Shown here: positions 19,584 through 57,550 of the stretch, piece after piece
Layout: each line of letters begins with the position of its first letter
Numbering within the stretch: position 1 is the first letter of the stretch
Assembly: GCA_021324855.1 (NCBI GenBank)
Contig: JAJPIG010000005.1
Span: 1-64,000, forward strand
Source of the DNA: Pseudomonadota bacterium
GTDB taxonomy: Bacteria; Desulfobacterota; Binatia; Binatales; Binataceae
Direction: 5' to 3'
Length of the DNA stretch: 64,000 nucleotides
Translations under genes and position numbers: made by a program
The notes under the pieces: model-generated
Seen by the model: only the letters and a program-made list of their open reading frames with translations
What the model was told of the DNA's origin: nothing
The model's database searches: none

Positions 19584-19623
19584 AAAAAAACGCCCGCTTC
19601 GTCGATCCGAAGCGGGCGTTTTT
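19584..19623. terminator. Bidirectional intrinsic terminator
   Basis: A perfect 13-bp stem AACGCCCGCTTCG/CGAAGCGGGCGTT with loop TCGATC, preceded by an A run and followed by a T run. It lies between the converging coiled-coil gene and mlaA and can stop transcription from both sides. Confidence 0.93.
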
Positions 19624-40078: not shown

Positions 40079-41557
40079 TCACGGCAACAAGCGCTGCCAC
40101 CAGGGCATGTTCGGCGGCGGATAGCCGTTGCCATAGCCGCCATAGCCGTAGCCGTATGGCGATCGATAACCGTACGGATTGTTGTAGCCGTACGGGTTTG
40201 CATATGGATTGCCATACGGGTACGGATTCCCCGCGTATGGATTTGCGTAAGGACTCGCGCCGTAGACATACGGGTTCGCGCCATAAACGTAAGGATTCAC
40301 GACCAAGGGCGTCGTTCCGTAGAGCGGAGCGGAGCCGGCGCTTCCCAGATCGACCGAGGTCTCGACGAAATTGCCGCCAACCCCGTAAGCGCGGATTGTC
40401 GCTTCGCTGCCCAGCATCTGAAACGTGGTATCAAAGCTGATCGCGCCGGAGCCGCGGCTGATGGGAATCGTTTGCGCGAGCCGCCCATCGACGTAAACGC
40501 CGGCCCGCCGCACGCCGCTACCGACAATCTGACCCGTCACTTCGTAGCGCCGTGGAATCGCGCTCACCTGGTTCACGCTTAGAAGATTGATTTGAACTCC
40601 TGCGAGCACCCCGGGATTGTAATTCGGCGGACGCGCCGGGATCGCGCTCGGGATCACCGCAGTGTTGCTGGACTCCAGCGAGGGCGCCGCAACAGCCGTG
40701 CCGGTATCGGCCCCGGCTGAGGCCGGCGAATCGCCGCGCATCACCTCGACGCCGGACGCCGACGCCACCTCCGCTGGAGATTCAAGCATCGCTTCGCTGC
40801 TGCGCCCGTTTTGATCATACACGCGCAACACCATTCCCGGCTGCACGCCAGTCAGCTTGAGATCAAAGTTGACGCGTTGCTCGCCGACGATGCGATCGAG
40901 ATGTAGCGCCTGAAGTCGATGCCGGCCGGAATAGATTCCAGCCGATTTCAGATTCGTTCCCGCGAACCATCCTTTGACTTGGAGCGCGCCACCCTCCCGG
41001 GTGCGCGACGTGATTGCGACCTGCGGTCCACCGTTGAGACTCGCCGCGGAAGCGGCCAGTCCCGACGGTGGCGCCGATGCCCCGGATGACGGGCCGGATG
41101 CGGCGGTATCTACCGCCGGCGGACCGGCGGTAGATACCGCCACGTTCGGCTTCACCTCCGCGGCGAGCGAATCGAGCGCGCTCTTAAGCGCGCGCCATCG
41201 CGATGCGGCGGCGGCGTCCGGATGCGCGCTGAGCGCGCCGTCGACCGCGGCCCTGTCGGCCGCAAGCGACGCCATCGCGCTTGCTGCGCCGCTCTGATCA
41301 CCGCGCTTCAGTGCGGTGGCCAAAGTCTGCGCATCGCCGGCGAATCCCGCCACCGGTCCGACGAGCGGATTCGAGCCTGAACCGCTGATACTGTTAAGGA
41401 ACGCGAAAGCTTGATCGCTAAGATGACTCGCAGCAGCTGCCGGTTCGGAAGCGGCCCACGCCAACCCTCCGATTAGTCCGGCCAGCGCGAGCACGGCGAG
41501 GATTACCCGCACCTGTTGCCATCGCCCCCCCGCCGAGACGTGCCGGATCCAATTCAT
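40079..41557 (-). CDS. Hypothetical envelope protein with Tyr/Pro/Gly/Asn-rich repeat tail
   Basis: 492 residues: N-terminal membrane anchor (about 17-35, VILAVLALAGLIGGLAWA), an Ala/Ser-rich region, beta-type stretches (residues about 170-410), and a tail from about residue 417 made of NPYVYGANPYVYGASPYANP-type units ending NMPWWQRLLP. The tail resembles secreted adhesive or structural low-complexity proteins, not an enzyme. Function unknown. It is 9 nt after a small membrane protein gene. An 18-bp palindrome lies within it. Confidence 0.65.
   Translation of the reverse strand: MNWIRHVSAGGRWQQVRVILAVLALAGLIGGLAWAASEPAAAASHLSDQAFAFLNSISGSGSNPLVGPVAGFAGDAQTLATALKRGDQSGAASAMASLAADRAAVDGALSAHPDAAAASRWRALKSALDSLAAEVKPNVAVSTAGPPAVDTAASGPSSGASAPPSGLAASAASLNGGPQVAITSRTREGGALQVKGWFAGTNLKSAGIYSGRHRLQALHLDRIVGEQRVNFDLKLTGVQPGMVLRVYDQNGRSSEAMLESPAEVASASGVEVMRGDSPASAGADTGTAVAAPSLESSNTAVIPSAIPARPPNYNPGVLAGVQINLLSVNQVSAIPRRYEVTGQIVGSGVRRAGVYVDGRLAQTIPISRGSGAISFDTTFQMLGSEATIRAYGVGGNFVETSVDLGSAGSAPLYGTTPLVVNPYVYGANPYVYGASPYANPYAGNPYPYGNPYANPYGYNNPYGYRSPYGYGYGGYGNGYPPPNMPWWQRLLP
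40085..40310 (-). repeat. Short tandem repeats encoding the (N/S)PYxYG tail
   Basis: Degenerate 12-24 bp units encode alternating NPY/YG motifs, about 75 codons in length. The reading frame is kept although the DNA varies, so the repeat is selected at protein level. Confidence 0.75.
41102..41141. repeat. Perfect 18-bp inverted repeat, 4-nt spacer, inside a gene
   Basis: GGCGGTATCTACCGCCGG, spacer CGGA, then its exact reverse complement. It lies in the Ala/Ser/Pro-rich part of the 40079-41557 gene, encoding AVSTAGPPAVDTA. Confidence 0.95.
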
Positions 41558-41881: not shown

Positions 41882-42877
41882 ATGACTCACGAACCCGACC
41901 CGGTCGCTACCGCGGCCGTCGATGGCCGTATCTATCGCGCGATCCACGCCGGCGCAGCATGGCGGATACTCGACGATCGCGCCCTGGTTCGTGTGATCGG
42001 CAGCGACCGCGTCAGCTTTCTCCATGGGATGCTGAGCAACGACGTTCGCGGGATGCAACCCGGCGATGCCGCCCCGGCGCTGGTGCTCAACGAGCGCGCT
42101 CATGTAATCGCGGACCTGTTCGTCTATGCCGAGCCCGACGACTTCCTCATCGAGATCGATCGCGAGCTCTGGCCGCGCGCCCGCGCGCATCTGGAACGCT
42201 TGCTCGTCGCCGATGACGTCGAATTCGAGGAACTCGCAGATTGGACCGTGCTCGATGTCGAGGGTCCGCGCGCGGTCGAACTTGTCAGCCGTACGCATCC
42301 GCAGATCGCCGCGCTCGACTTGTGGCGCTTCGTTTCGGACGGTGATCTCAGAATCGCACATCTGCCGCGTTACGATTGGCCCGCAGTGACCGCGCTCGGC
42401 AATCGCAAGTCGATTGCCGCCGTCGTTCACGAACTGGAAGCGCACGCGCCCGAGGCTCAGAAAGCGGATGCGGCGGCGTTCGAAACGTTGCGCGTCGAAC
42501 GCGGTCTTGCCCGCGTCGGAATCGATACCGGCGAGAAGACCCTGGCGCTCGAAGCGCGCTTCGAGCGCGCCATTTCCCTCAACAAGGGATGCTACGTTGG
42601 GCAGGAGACGCTCGAGCGCGCGACTGCGCACGGTTCGCTCAAAAAGAAATTATTTGGTCTGCGGCTGGTTTGCGGCACGCCGCCGGCGATCGGCGCAGTG
42701 GTGGAACTCGACGGTCACGAGGTTGGAACTATCACCAGCGTCGCCTCATCGCCCGGCCAAGGGACGCTTGGGTTGGGGATAATCCATCATAGCGCATGGG
42801 CGCCGGGTACCGCGGTCATGATAAAGGATTCGGCAGGGGCGCGGCCGGCGACGGTGAGCGATCTGCCCTTCAAGTAG
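41882..42877 (+). CDS. ygfZ: YgfZ/GcvT-fold tetrahydrofolate-binding protein
   Basis: 331 residues of aminomethyltransferase-like fold. The signature KGCYVGQETLERATAHG is that of YgfZ, which supports Fe-S enzyme repair or assembly; the cysteine is essential there. IGSDRVSFLHGMLSNDV is the GcvT-like start. It precedes the small desulforedoxin-like gene by 17 bp, a plausible joint role in iron-sulfur or redox handling. Confidence 0.9.
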   Translation: MTHEPDPVATAAVDGRIYRAIHAGAAWRILDDRALVRVIGSDRVSFLHGMLSNDVRGMQPGDAAPALVLNERAHVIADLFVYAEPDDFLIEIDRELWPRARAHLERLLVADDVEFEELADWTVLDVEGPRAVELVSRTHPQIAALDLWRFVSDGDLRIAHLPRYDWPAVTALGNRKSIAAVVHELEAHAPEAQKADAAAFETLRVERGLARVGIDTGEKTLALEARFERAISLNKGCYVGQETLERATAHGSLKKKLFGLRLVCGTPPAIGAVVELDGHEVGTITSVASSPGQGTLGLGIIHHSAWAPGTAVMIKDSAGARPATVSDLPFK

Positions 42878-46942: not shown

Positions 46943-47725
46943 TTGGCAGTCAGACGCAATTCGCGGCCGCCGCGCGCGCGCCGCGCGCGCGGCGGCCGCG
47001 AGCTGATCGTCGAGGCGCGCGGGCGTTTCGTCCTCGCGACGCTCAACCGCCCGCGCGCCGGAAATCGAATCACGCCCGTAATGGCGAGCCAGCTCATCGA
47101 GCTCGCCGAACGTGTCGAAGATGACGACGAAATCCTGATGCTCGCGATCACCGGAGCCGGTGCGGTTTTCTGCATCGGTTTCGAACCCGGCGTCGATTCG
47201 CGCCTCGTCGAATCGCTCGCCGCGCTCGCCAAGCCGACCCTCGCGATTATCAACGGCGACGCTTTCGACGAGGGGCTCGAACTCGCGCTCGCTCTCGACC
47301 TGCGGATTGCCGCCGCACGGGCGCGATTCGCGATGACCCAGCCGCAGCGCGGACGTTTGCCGCGCTTTGGCGGCACGCAGCGTTTGCCGCGCATCATCGG
47401 CGCCCCGCGCGCCCTGCGGATGCTGCTGACGGGCGAAGCGATCGACGGACGCGCCGCGCTTGCCTCCGGACTGGTCGGCGAGCTTGCCGCCTCGCCGGCG
47501 CGGCTGCGAAAGCTGGCGGCGGAACGGATCGAATCGCTTTTGAAGCGCGCGCCGCTCGCCGTTCGGATGGCGAAGGAGGCGGTCATCAAGGGCTACGATA
47601 TGACGCTCGTGCAAGGTATAAGGCTGGAGGAAGATCTTTACGCGCTGCTCCAGACCACCGCGGATCGGAGCGAAGGGGTGCGGGCGTTTCTCGACAAGCG
47701 TCGCCCGCTCTTCAAGGGAAGTTGA
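46943..47725 (+). CDS. Divergent enoyl-CoA hydratase-like protein
   Basis: About 260 residues from TTG (46943), two bases after the synthetase stop; no ATG or GTG suits better. Crotonase fold: ATLNRPRAGNRI, GAGAVFCIGFEPG, INGDAFDEGLELALALDLRI, FGGTQRLPRIIGAP. The second oxyanion glycine is Asp (GDAFDEG) and the expected catalytic Glu is Gln (TQPQRGRLP), so hydratase activity is doubtful. It may be regulatory or act on another CoA ester. The first 20 codons contain a 39-nt G+C palindrome. Confidence 0.8.
   Translation: MAVRRNSRPPRARRARGGRELIVEARGRFVLATLNRPRAGNRITPVMASQLIELAERVEDDDEILMLAITGAGAVFCIGFEPGVDSRLVESLAALAKPTLAIINGDAFDEGLELALALDLRIAAARARFAMTQPQRGRLPRFGGTQRLPRIIGAPRALRMLLTGEAIDGRAALASGLVGELAASPARLRKLAAERIESLLKRAPLAVRMAKEAVIKGYDMTLVQGIRLEEDLYALLQTTADRSEGVRAFLDKRRPLFKGS
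46962..47000. repeat. 39-nt pure G+C palindrome (19-bp arms, 1-nt centre)
   Basis: CGCGGCCGCCGCGCGCGCG, C, then its exact reverse complement, at the 5' end of the divergent hydratase gene. It encodes a basic Arg/Ala/Pro run before the fold begins. Confidence 0.95.
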
Positions 47726-53190: not shown

Positions 53191-54663
53191 ATGCCGACTG
53201 ATCTCTTTATAGGCGGCGCGTATCGGTCGGCCGCTCACAATGCACGCTTTCCGGTGATCGAACCGGCGACCGAACGCGAATTGGCGCAGGTAGCGATCGC
53301 CGCCGAGCAGGATGTTGCCGACGCCGTCGAAGCGGCGCGCGTCGCGGCTGATAGCGGGCCCTGGCCCGCGATGAACGCGGAAGCGCGCGCACGAATCCTC
53401 AACCGGATGGCCGACGGTATCGAGCGACGCGCGAAGGAACTCGGCACGCTCGAGGCCCGCGATGTCGGTAAGCCGGTCAGCGAATGCGTGAATCACGACA
53501 TCGCGCGCGCGGCAAAAAACATCCGGTTCTTCGCCGCGGCCGCTGAAGCATGGACCCAGGAGGCGTCGTTCAGCGACGCGAAGTTTCTCGGCGCAGATCT
53601 GAAGCTGATGAGCGTGACGGCGCGGAGTCCGCTGGGCGTCGGCGCGATCATTATCCCCTGGAATTCGCCGCTGATGCTGGCGACGTGGAATCTCGGCCCG
53701 TGCCTCGCAACCGGCAACACCTGCGTGCTTAAACCCTCCGAACTCGCGCCGCTCACATCGCTCGCGCTCGGCGAGATCGCCGCCGAAGCAGGATTGCCGC
53801 CCGGCGTGCTCAACGTGATAACCGGGCTCGGCGCAACCGGCGCCGCACTGGTGAATCATCCGGACGTCGACGCGATTGCGTTTACGGGAGGCGTCGGAAC
53901 CGGCCGCAGCGTGATGGCCGCCGCATCGGGATCGCTCAAGCGCGTCACGCTCGAACTGGGCGGCAAATCGCCGAACCTGGTGTTTTCCGATGCCGACTTG
54001 AAGCGTTCAGCCGCAGGCGTCGCGCGATCGATCTTTCGCAGCCAAGGTCAGTCATGTGTCGCCGGCTCGCGTCTGCTGATCGATCGGCGGATCGCCGATG
54101 AGTTTCTTGCGCTACTGCTTGAACAGGTTTCAAAAATCAGAATTGGTGATCCGCTCGATGCCGCCACCGAGTATGGCCCGCTGATTTCGGCAAGCCATCG
54201 CGAACGTGTCCATGCCTTTGTCACCGAGGCCGTGGCCGCCGGGGCGACATTGCTTTGCGGCGGCTCCGTGCCATCGAAACCGGAGCGCGGTTACTACTAT
54301 TTGCCAACGATTCTCGACAACATCGACGAAAAGTCGCGCGCCGTGTGCGAAGAGATCTTCGGTCCCGTGCTGACCGTCCAACGCTTCGACGATGAAGAAG
54401 ATGCGATTGCAAAAGCCAACGCCACTCGCTTCGGACTCTCGGCCTACATCTGGACCACGCGCATCGAACGCGCGCTCCGAGTTGCGAATCGGCTCAAGGC
54501 CGGAATGGTCTGGGTCAACAGCTTTTTCCTGCGCGATCTGCGGACTCCGTTCGGCGGCGCGCGCCAGAGCGGACTCGGACGCCAGGGCGGACGCTACAGC
54601 CTCGAGTTCTGGACCGAGCCGCGGATGATCTGCATGACCTATGGGGAGGACAGCCATGGGTGA
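53191..54663 (+). CDS. Aldehyde dehydrogenase (HpaE-like)
   Basis: 490 residues. Catalytic Cys289 in SQGQSCVAGSR, Glu255 in ELGGKSPN, Asn158 in IPWNSP and the NAD-binding GGVGTGRSV. The neighbours suggest 5-carboxymethyl-2-hydroxymuconate semialdehyde or a comparable ring-cleavage product, but ALDH specificity is weakly encoded. Its last 8 nt overlap the dioxygenase gene. Divergent from the Lon-domain gene. Confidence 0.92.
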   Translation: MPTDLFIGGAYRSAAHNARFPVIEPATERELAQVAIAAEQDVADAVEAARVAADSGPWPAMNAEARARILNRMADGIERRAKELGTLEARDVGKPVSECVNHDIARAAKNIRFFAAAAEAWTQEASFSDAKFLGADLKLMSVTARSPLGVGAIIIPWNSPLMLATWNLGPCLATGNTCVLKPSELAPLTSLALGEIAAEAGLPPGVLNVITGLGATGAALVNHPDVDAIAFTGGVGTGRSVMAAASGSLKRVTLELGGKSPNLVFSDADLKRSAAGVARSIFRSQGQSCVAGSRLLIDRRIADEFLALLLEQVSKIRIGDPLDAATEYGPLISASHRERVHAFVTEAVAAGATLLCGGSVPSKPERGYYYLPTILDNIDEKSRAVCEEIFGPVLTVQRFDDEEDAIAKANATRFGLSAYIWTTRIERALRVANRLKAGMVWVNSFFLRDLRTPFGGARQSGLGRQGGRYSLEFWTEPRMICMTYGEDSHG

Positions 54664-55528
54664 GGTGGTTGCCGCGATTCTGACCACGCATGTGCCGCGC
54701 CTGATGATTCACGATCTCGAAGCGCGCCGCGCTTACATGGGCAGGCAGATATCCACCTTTTACGAGGCGATGGAACGCGTCGAACGGGAGCGCCTGCAGG
54801 CGCTCCCGTTCGACACCTTCGTGCTCTTCGATACGCATTGGTTCACGACCGTCGAATACGTGCTGAACGCACACGAACGGCTCGCCGGCGTCTACACCTC
54901 GGAAGAGTTGCCGCAGATGCTGCACGACCATCCGTATGACTACCCGGGCGATCCCGACCTCGCGCACGCGATCGAGCTTGCGGCACGGCGGAACGGCGTG
55001 CGCGCCGTTGCATCGAGCCATCGGAACCTGCCGATCCACTATCCGACGCTCAACGTGATGTACTATTTCAATCCCGGCGCGCGGCGGCGCGTGCTCTCGA
55101 TCGGCGTCTGCCAGACGGCCTCGGTCGAAAACGATCTCGCCTTCGGCGCGGCGCTCGGCGAGGCAATTCGATTGAGCGATCGGCGTGTCGTGCTGATCGC
55201 ATCAGGCGGCCTGTCGCATCGATTTTGGGAATACGATCGAATCCTGGAGCGGGCCTCTGCATCGCCCGACGACATCTACTCGGAGGAGAATCGCGCCTAC
55301 GATGCGAAGATCATCGAATGGCTTAAGGCGGGACATCACGATGAGGTGCTCGCGAATGCGAACGACTTCCGCCGCCGATGCTCGCCGGAGGGCCGCTTCT
55401 CACATTACCTGATGATGGCGGGTGCGATGGGCGGTGCGGGATGGAACTGGCGCGGCGAACAGTTCGGCTCGTACGAGGCGGCGCTCGGCACCGGCCAGGC
55501 GATCATCTACTTCGCACGTCCGTCGTGA
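54656..55528 (+). CDS. Class III extradiol ring-cleavage dioxygenase (LigB-type)
   Basis: 290 residues from ATG 54656 behind GGGGAGGA. Iron ligands: His12 (ILTTHVPRL), His61 (FDTHWFTT), and a C-terminal Glu in the family; HYPTLNVMYYF and ASGGLSHRFWEYD are conserved blocks of the homoprotocatechuate 2,3-dioxygenase-like group. It opens a catechol ring meta to a hydroxyl. Adjacent hydroxylase and aldehyde dehydrogenase fit a meta pathway. Confidence 0.88.
   Translation: MGEVVAAILTTHVPRLMIHDLEARRAYMGRQISTFYEAMERVERERLQALPFDTFVLFDTHWFTTVEYVLNAHERLAGVYTSEELPQMLHDHPYDYPGDPDLAHAIELAARRNGVRAVASSHRNLPIHYPTLNVMYYFNPGARRRVLSIGVCQTASVENDLAFGAALGEAIRLSDRRVVLIASGGLSHRFWEYDRILERASASPDDIYSEENRAYDAKIIEWLKAGHHDEVLANANDFRRRCSPEGRFSHYLMMAGAMGGAGWNWRGEQFGSYEAALGTGQAIIYFARPS
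54779..54814. repeat. 36-nt perfect palindrome inside the dioxygenase gene
   Basis: GTCGAACGGGAGCGCCTG followed with no spacer by its exact reverse complement CAGGCGCTCCCGTTCGAC. It encodes VERERLQALPFD. Confidence 0.95.
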
Positions 55529-55662
55529 ATCCTTCGCCGGCATCAAGCCAGGCTTCCTCCTCACATTCAGAGCGGAGGCTGCTGAAGCGAAGAATGACGG
55601 GCCGAGATCCTGAGTGTGCGCAGGTCGGCGGCATGCGATCCTGCGCTGCGGTCAGAATTAAC

Positions 55663-55968
55663 AGATCCTTCACAACCTATCCGATCACCGAGATGGGCTT
55701 TCTCAGGGTAAGCCTATCTCCCGCGTTTGGCGCGAGCTTCGAGGATGCGATGGCGGCGCCGGCCGCCATCCCCGGCATGCGCGCCCATCGGTTCCTGCCT
55801 GATGCAACACGCGCGCAATCCTTGCCTCGCGTCCGCGCCAGCAAGGACGTCACCGATGCGCACCTGGTTCATCTGGCGCGGCGCAACGGGCTGAAGCTCG
55901 CAACCTTCGATGCCGCCATGTGCGGTCACCCATGGGCGCGCGGCGTCGCGGAAGATCCAACCGGGTAA
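55663..55968 (+). pseudogene. N-terminally truncated VapC (PIN-domain) toxin
   Basis: About 100 residues match the C-terminal half of a PIN-domain toxin: TYPITEMGFLRV and TDAHLVHLARRNGLKLATFD, with the Asp of the last acidic pair. The N-terminal part carrying the first catalytic Asp is absent and no antitoxin gene is nearby. A frame is open back to 55633 but reads unlike PIN protein. So the toxin is dead. It lies between two catabolic genes, so it may be an insertion relic. Confidence 0.75.
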
Positions 55969-56107
55969 GCGACGCGCAAACGACCCGCAAGACCCTTTGC
56001 ATCGCTTCGGCGCCGGTCGAAATTACAGAACGGGGCCAATCGATGACGCCCGGAGAGGCTTTGCACTTCTCATCCGGCGCGGGATACTACGCGCATCGGA
56101 GGTGGCC

Positions 56108-57550
56108 ATGGGCGCACGATCGGGCAATAACTACCTGAGCGCGCTGCGCAAGCTCAAAGCGGACATCTGGATCGCCGGCGCGAAAGTCGGCGACGTCACC
56201 ACCCATCCCGCCTTCGAGCGCTGCGCGCGCTCGATAGCCTCGCTCTACGACCTCCAGATGGAAGCGCCGGAGGCGATGACCTATCGCACCGACGACGGCG
56301 ACCGCGCCGGCCTCTCGTTCATCCAGCCGAAGAGCGTCGAGGATGTCGCGCGGCGTGGGCGCATGATGAAGCGATGGGCCGATTACGCCGGCGGTATGCT
56401 GGGACGCGCGCCCGACTATCTCAATTGCAGCATCGCTGCGATGGCGGCGGCTCACGACTTCTTCGCCGAATCGGATCCGCGCTACGGCGACAACATCGTC
56501 AATTACTATCGCGAGGCCCGCAAGCACGACTGGTGCGCGACGCATACGCTGGTAAATCCGCGCGCGAGCCGCGCCAAAACCTGGGGCGGTCATACCGATG
56601 CCAATCTCGCGCTGCGCCTGGTCGAAAAAACCCGCGACGGAATTATCGTCAACGGATGCCGCCTGCTGGCGACGCTCGCCCCGCTGTCAGAGGAGATGCT
56701 GGTCTTCCCGTCGACCGTGCTGCGCGTCGAGCCCGAGGCCGAGCCGTTCGCGCTCGCGTTTGCAATCAACTGCGACGCGAAGGGTCTGCGCTTTCTCTGC
56801 CGCGAGACATTCGATCTGAATCGTTCGCATTTCGACCATCCGCTGTCCTCGCGCTTCGAGGAGATGGACGCGCTCGCGATCTTCGATAACGTGCTGGTGC
56901 CGTGGGAGCGCGTCTTCCTGTGCGGCGATCCGGCGCGATGCAACGCGCTTTACGGCACTACCAATGCCGTCGTCCACATGATGCATCAGGTGGTGGTGAA
57001 GAACGTCGCCAAGAGCGAATTCATGCTCGGGCTCGCCGCGCGGATCGCCGAGGTCAGCGACGCGTTGAGCCTGCAGCATGTGCGCGAGCGGCTGGCGGAG
57101 ATGATCGAGGTGACCGAGATGATGCGCGCGTTCCTGCGCGCCGGCGAAGCCGACGCCGCCGCCGATCGCTGGGGGATGTTCACGCCGTCGCGGCCGCCGC
57201 TCGACGTCGCGCGCAATCTCTTCCCAAAGCTCTATCCCCGGATGGTCGAGATCATCCAGCTCAACAGCTCGTCGAGCATGATGGCGATTCCGTCGGAAGC
57301 CGATTTCAACAGTCCGATTCGCGCTGAGATCGATCGCTACCTGCCCGGCGCGGACGTTGAGGCGCGCGAGCGCGTTGCGCTCTATCGCCTGGCCTGGGAT
57401 GCGGCGTGCAGCTCGTTTGCGGGACGCCAGTTGCTGTACGAGCGATTTTTCTTCGGCGATCCGGTGAAGATGGCGAGCGCGCTGGTCGACAACACGAATC
57501 TGAAGCCGCTGGTGGAGCGCGTCAACGCGTTTCTGAAGCGCGCGGATTAA
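56108..57550 (+). CDS. 4-hydroxyphenylacetate 3-hydroxylase (HpaB) family monooxygenase
   Basis: 480 residues from ATG 56108 (GGAGGTGGCC upstream). FADH2-dependent fold: KTWGGHTDANLALRLVEKTR, STVLRVEPEA, FDLNRSHFDHPLSSRF and VPWERVFLCGDP are HpaB/PvcC-like. It would hydroxylate a phenolic compound to a catechol, the substrate type of the neighbouring dioxygenase. The flavin reductase (HpaC) is not adjacent; a FMN reductase lies at 61989. Other family members include 4-hydroxybutyryl-CoA dehydratase; the key cysteines of that group are not evident. Confidence 0.85.
   Translation: MGARSGNNYLSALRKLKADIWIAGAKVGDVTTHPAFERCARSIASLYDLQMEAPEAMTYRTDDGDRAGLSFIQPKSVEDVARRGRMMKRWADYAGGMLGRAPDYLNCSIAAMAAAHDFFAESDPRYGDNIVNYYREARKHDWCATHTLVNPRASRAKTWGGHTDANLALRLVEKTRDGIIVNGCRLLATLAPLSEEMLVFPSTVLRVEPEAEPFALAFAINCDAKGLRFLCRETFDLNRSHFDHPLSSRFEEMDALAIFDNVLVPWERVFLCGDPARCNALYGTTNAVVHMMHQVVVKNVAKSEFMLGLAARIAEVSDALSLQHVRERLAEMIEVTEMMRAFLRAGEADAAADRWGMFTPSRPPLDVARNLFPKLYPRMVEIIQLNSSSSMMAIPSEADFNSPIRAEIDRYLPGADVEARERVALYRLAWDAACSSFAGRQLLYERFFFGDPVKMASALVDNTNLKPLVERVNAFLKRAD

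Follow-up and report, generated by a model that had tools for sequence, protein, structure and literature searches.

A perfect 36-nt palindrome inside a dioxygenase gene of a Binataceae genome: a probable footprint of hairpin-templated quasi-palindrome correction

The closest precedent for the palindromes described here is provided by the mitochondrial genes of Nematomorpha, in which coding palindromes are gained and lost between species, are either perfect or absent, and have been proposed to arise by template switching (PMC6649704). Template switching at quasi-palindromes is established in E. coli (PMC7202029) and in yeast coding DNA (PMC8604942), and it has been argued to create and maintain the stems of RNA genes (PMC8794818). 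As summarised in PMC7202029, which cites Ripley 1982 and Dutra and Lovett 2006, quasi-palindrome correction is known from thyA and lacZ reporters in E. coli; inverted repeats are comparatively few inside the reading frames of this bacterium (PMC6060812). Palindromic DNA of another kind, the Rickettsia palindromic elements, is inserted and loses its repeat identity over time, according to the account in PMC6649704. The phylum Binatota, to which this lineage probably belongs, has been described (PMC8262859), and a literature search, which was not exhaustive, returned no paper on such palindromes in Binatota or any other bacterial chromosome.

Here, we analysed a palindrome in a 64,000-nt stretch of a Binataceae genome (the window). 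The palindrome and its host gene are as follows.

54656-55528, plus strand: LigB-family extradiol dioxygenase gene, HpaD-like (PF02900), host of the palindrome; the first ATG of the open reading frame is at 54641
54779-54814, no strand assigned: perfect palindrome of 36 nt (18+18, spacer 0), in frame in the dioxygenase gene, with VERERLQALPFD on both strands

The initial annotation had described a spacerless 36-nt palindrome inside a dioxygenase gene, and the match is exact: the region consists of GTCGAACGGGAGCGCCTG followed by CAGGCGCTCCCGTTCGAC, the two arms are exactly complementary, and the full palindrome reads GTCGAACGGGAGCGCCTGCAGGCGCTCCCGTTCGAC. It corresponds to codons 42-53 of the gene (numbered from 54656), and because its start coincides with a codon boundary of the open reading frame, both strands encode the same residues. 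The product matches PF02900 over nearly its full length (aa 7-274, 116.7 bits, cut-off 26.3), and its score of 172.7 bits against TIGR02298 is below the cut-off of 315.95 for the equivalog level of HpaD_Fe (3,4-dihydroxyphenylacetate 2,3-dioxygenase). The gene is flanked by genes for an HpaE-like aldehyde dehydrogenase and an HpaB-type 4-hydroxyphenylacetate monooxygenase, and the setting is therefore an ordinary aromatic-degradation cluster; the HpaE-like, HpaD-like and HpaB-1 genes are consecutive at 53191-57550 of the window and make up a cluster of the 4-hydroxyphenylacetate degradation type.

The window holds three further palindromes inside genes, none with an assigned strand.

46961-47001: palindrome of 20+20 with a 1-nt spacer, within the opening codons of an open reading frame for an enoyl-CoA hydratase
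41102-41141: palindrome of 18+18 with a 4-nt spacer, in a minus-strand hypothetical protein gene
42545-42568: spacerless palindrome of 12+12, in a folate-binding YgfZ-like gene (named by reading its sequence)

Thus, the earlier claim that the dioxygenase palindrome is the third long one within genes in 14 kb was borne out at 41102-41141, 46961-47001 and 54779-54814 alike. The palindrome at 42545-42568 is close to the chance range, in that shuffled sequences give about 2 palindromes with arms of at least 12 nt per Mb. The open reading frame holding 46961-47001 would have a TTG start, and the gene around 41102-41141 (40079-41557, minus strand) encodes a hypothetical protein that has no Pfam match and carries an Asn/Pro/Tyr/Gly-rich repeat at its C terminus. 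Separately, an intergenic inverted repeat at 19586-19623 (16+16, 6-nt loop, A/T tails) resembles a bidirectional intrinsic terminator.

A census, which the initial annotation had proposed for the whole genome, was run over 1.17 Mb (31%) of the host genome of 3.75 Mb in 38 contigs, with the sample picked by contig position and comprising 1.03 Mb of coding DNA. Genes were called by a simple codon model of our own, and palindromes were counted if they were perfect, lay inside genes and had a spacer of at most 8 nt. In the coding sample, the arms measure 16-26 nt in 14 palindromes, 11 of them outside the window, and 12-15 nt in just 4. Synonymous shuffles that keep protein and codon usage (12 replicates) gave none with arms of at least 16 nt and a mean of 1.9 with arms of at least 12 nt, and codon-order shuffles agreed with them. 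Similarly, no arms of at least 16 nt were present in approximately 1.14 Mb of comparator coding DNA from two genomes of the family, two of the class and 80 loci of many bacteria (binomial p 3e-5); among these comparators, the family member G013 had none in 173 kb and the class member G039 none in 176 kb. When mismatches were allowed in stems of 18 pairs, 10 stems paired at 18/18, five at 17/18 and three at 16/18, with counts below that at the shuffle level, and long stems in this genome are mostly perfect or absent. When wider spacers were also examined, the excess of inverted repeats lay at spacers of 0-20 nt. The palindromes are clustered, with four pairs less than 300 bp apart versus 0.05 expected, a pattern that could stem from tolerant regions or from bursts.

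These counts bear on the idea that G+C-rich codons with reversed complements (GAG/CTC, CGC/GCG, CTG/CAG) yield palindromes unaided. The arms are indeed 79% G+C, and the dioxygenase site is already quasi-palindromic in the family by its amino acids, with 8.8 of 18 pairs expected from the column composition of the homologues. However, the comparison of 14 observed palindromes with none in the shuffles contradicts this idea genome-wide, as does the absence of long arms from G039, which has 72% G+C, and we consider it hardly tenable. The palindrome at 54779-54814 is not due to chance and belongs to a genome-wide pattern.

At the dioxygenase site, we compared 25 homologues, i.e. those of 24 other genomes of the family (67-75% identity) and one named record (L072). 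They align without gaps across the palindrome, except for L017, which is one codon shorter. Their pairing ranges from 7 to 14 of the 18 positions with a mean of 9.6, versus 18/18 in this genome, and independent draws from the homologue columns would pair all 18 positions with a probability of approximately 3e-8. Judging from the aligned homologues, the amino acids thus make the site a quasi-palindrome, and none of the genomes compared but this one has it in perfect form. The initial annotation had pointed to relatives with similar amino acids, no palindrome and a chance frequency as the comparison to make; its idea of a common process survives this comparison. In G014, which lies well apart from this genome on the gene tree (distance 0.66), a perfect palindrome of 12+12 with different letters has the identical centre. 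Arm history was judged by column counts and pairwise comparison. Both arms contain bases seldom seen in the family, and G014 and a Rokubacteria outgroup also have portions of the right arm (CAG, ACG-like), so that a single simple copying event is insufficient and the palindrome may have been formed in several steps. Specifically, we do not claim one left-to-right copying event, given the family-rare bases of the left arm and the right-arm CAG and ACG of the outgroup. We also dropped the argument that the proline codon CCG required three base changes, as two relatives have NCG at that codon.

Three other genes with long palindromes were compared across genomes.

L040:3302-3353, this genome: palindrome of 26+26 in murF
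L173:18587-19126, this genome: RNase H gene, with palindromes of 17+17 and 23+23
L249:1522-1749, L262:1328-1519, L264:2327-2625 and L267:45-99, four genomes: palindrome loci in the DUF4838 gene

In murF of the same-genus genome G001, the collinear palindrome is imperfect, with 19/26 pairs. Eight of the 52 bases differ between the two genomes, and all eight fall in the seven mismatched pairs, which they complete, with none at the paired sites. The sister genomes G019 and G029 have a murF palindrome in common (L234:1620-1666 and L242:1620-1666), and a G-C pair in one corresponds to an A-T pair in the other at partner positions 15 and 33. In this genome, the essential gene murF carries three perfect inverted repeats (17+17, 17+17 and 26+26) within the 183 bp at L040:3171-3353. 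Where the RNase H gene of this genome has the 23+23 palindrome, the inverted repeat of G001 is imperfect and the segment is shorter in most other members; in the C-terminal part of this gene the inverted copy is absent or shorter in most of the family. In the DUF4838 gene, different long perfect palindromes are present at approximately the same N-terminal linker place in four genomes; this linker is either a recurrent hotspot or the site of an old palindrome with arms drifting together.

We considered whether a palindromic mobile element resembling the Rickettsia palindromic elements had been inserted in these genes. Such elements have sequence in common. The palindromic DNA is in frame inside genes, and the RNase H and DUF4838 cases have extra sequence relative to some members. 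An insertion-like history would suit only some cases, for instance the C-terminal part of RNase H. At the dioxygenase and murF sites, there is no insertion, and the arms of the palindromes have no common sequence, the longest word in common being 9 nt, as in random coding segments; this also upholds the initial annotation in its view that the palindromes differ and do not form one repeat family. Given collinear sites and unrelated arms, insertion of a mobile element is unsupported, and as an explanation for the dioxygenase palindrome we regard it as extremely improbable.

Based on these data, we suggest that the palindrome at 54779-54814 is probably a footprint of hairpin-templated quasi-palindrome correction by intramolecular template switching during DNA synthesis. 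In this model, the amino-acid pattern E-R-L-x-x-L-x-F would give rise to an imperfect palindrome at the dioxygenase site throughout the family. During synthesis, the strand would fold back, or the polymerase would quit its template and copy the nascent strand's complementary arm instead. Replacement of the mismatches, in one or a few steps, would then leave the two arms equal. The dioxygenase frame stays intact because no base is added, and a few residues are altered. Since the relatives are collinear and already imperfectly palindromic, the arms of the dioxygenase and murF palindromes appear to have been equalised by replacement. The initial annotation had spoken of hairpin-templated duplication; a common hairpin-template process is supported by the census, the stem spectrum and murF, whereas duplication is unsupported, as arms were converted and nothing was inserted at the dioxygenase and murF sites. 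The model draws on the perfect palindrome, its collinear imperfect relatives, the genome-wide excess, the few intermediate stems, the murF pair with G001 and the two-sided change in the sister genomes. From these observations we infer the polymerase step, its direction (i.e. the arm copied), how many events took place and that the process is still active; the comparisons were made between species and genera, a distance at which single events are not seen.

An alternative to template switching is that selection for a functional mRNA or DNA hairpin, i.e. an attenuator, a processing site or a protein-binding site, keeps the arms complementary. Folded as single-stranded DNA, 54779-54814 forms a strong stem (-22.8 kcal/mol, z = -5.8 versus shuffles), and the identical centre of the palindrome in G014, the recurrence of different palindromes at one place in DUF4838 and the paired change that preserves the murF stem in G019 and G029 would all suit selection on a hairpin. 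Paired changes of this kind can, however, be produced by template switching alone (PMC8794818). Moreover, 23 of the 25 other dioxygenase homologues pair at most 11 of the 18 positions, G001 has no perfect stems in the three genes compared, and the palindromes lie in unrelated genes, at the start, in the middle or at the end. Features of a regulatory hairpin or an intrinsic terminator were not found, as the palindrome lies within the gene and none of the 25 homologues has a perfect stem. Selection for a hairpin is disfavoured because nearly all dioxygenase homologues are without the stem, G001 has no perfect stems in the genes compared and positions in the unrelated genes vary, and we therefore consider it improbable.

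Fold-back artefacts of assembly or amplification do create inverted repeats, and the named records of the family are almost all metagenome assemblies, as is the genome studied here. A fold-back chimera would break collinearity; the dioxygenase gene, by contrast, is full-length and collinear on both sides of the site. In addition, such palindromes are present in several separate genomes of the family, one pair of which has partner-matched differences. Judged from assemblies rather than reads, an artefact is unlikely given the unbroken genes and the partner-matched differences between separate assemblies, and for this palindrome we rate it as very unlikely.

To our knowledge, the template-switch process acts in all bacteria, and an explanation for the palindrome richness of this lineage may be sought in its repair genes. 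Among 41 genomes of the family, SbcD scored above the cut-off only in G004, long SbcC-like matches were found only in G004 and G007, and the large subunit of exonuclease VII was above the cut-off in 40. Loss of exonuclease VII is rejected, as xseA is present. Absence of the hairpin nuclease SbcCD may permit palindromes, but it does not explain the excess over relatives: nearly the whole family is without SbcCD, yet unselected samples of other members contain few palindromes, and G039, in which no SbcD match was above the cut-off, also has no arms of at least 16 nt. Thus, loss of SbcCD as the sole cause is unsupported, and its near-absence in the family is only a lead. Long palindromes of other members are mainly at the murF and DUF4838 loci, and none are at the dioxygenase, PMT and YgfZ loci, where other genomes have no arms of at least 14 nt in approximately 331 kb. 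Because murF and DUF4838 were selected for their palindromes in this genome, the rates for other members are uncertain. In yeast, quasi-palindrome mutations are associated with the loss of RNase H2 (PMC3820800); that the RNase H gene is among those with palindromes here is probably a coincidence. Tentatively, we speculate that the replication and repair make-up of the Binataceae lineage, for instance the lack of SbcCD, might raise the frequency of intramolecular template switching to the point where coding palindromes keep being formed and stay perfect even as their arms drift together, which would amount to chromosome-wide, protein-altering conversion comparable to that proposed for nematomorph mitochondria.

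A palindrome-rich bacterial lineage would show a mutational process studied mostly in reporters acting chromosome-wide and altering several residues at once. It would also carry a warning, as paired compensatory changes, which commonly count as proof that an RNA stem is functional, can come from mutation alone. Moreover, the sharp contrasts among related genomes would offer a comparative way to search for the repair genes responsible.

Several known systems share design features with the one described here. As in quasi-palindrome correction in E. coli, an imperfect inverted repeat would become perfect by copying of one arm, with collinear sequence and clustered base changes; however, the E. 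coli cases are single hotspots in reporter genes, while here there is a standing chromosome-wide excess with arms of up to 26 nt. As in yeast, where template-switch multinucleotide mutations were inferred between strains along a tree (PMC8604942), homogenisation of arms alters neighbouring protein residues, although here the comparison is between species and genera. The Rickettsia palindromic elements are likewise palindromic DNA in frame in bacterial genes, and they differ from the palindromes here in that the latter involve no insertion at the dioxygenase and murF sites and have arms without common sequence. The nematomorph palindromes are similar in that perfect inverted repeats with unrelated sequences lie in functional protein genes, are many beyond shuffle expectation, are perfect or absent, come and go between species and have template switching as their proposed origin. 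They are, by contrast, mitochondrial and up to 284 bp long, while those described here are in a G+C-rich bacterial chromosome and, as sampled, have arms of 16-26 nt. Thus, the palindromes of this genome work like the nematomorph type without being a member of it, and a process that is known in kind is here unusually visible in its extent in a bacterial chromosome.
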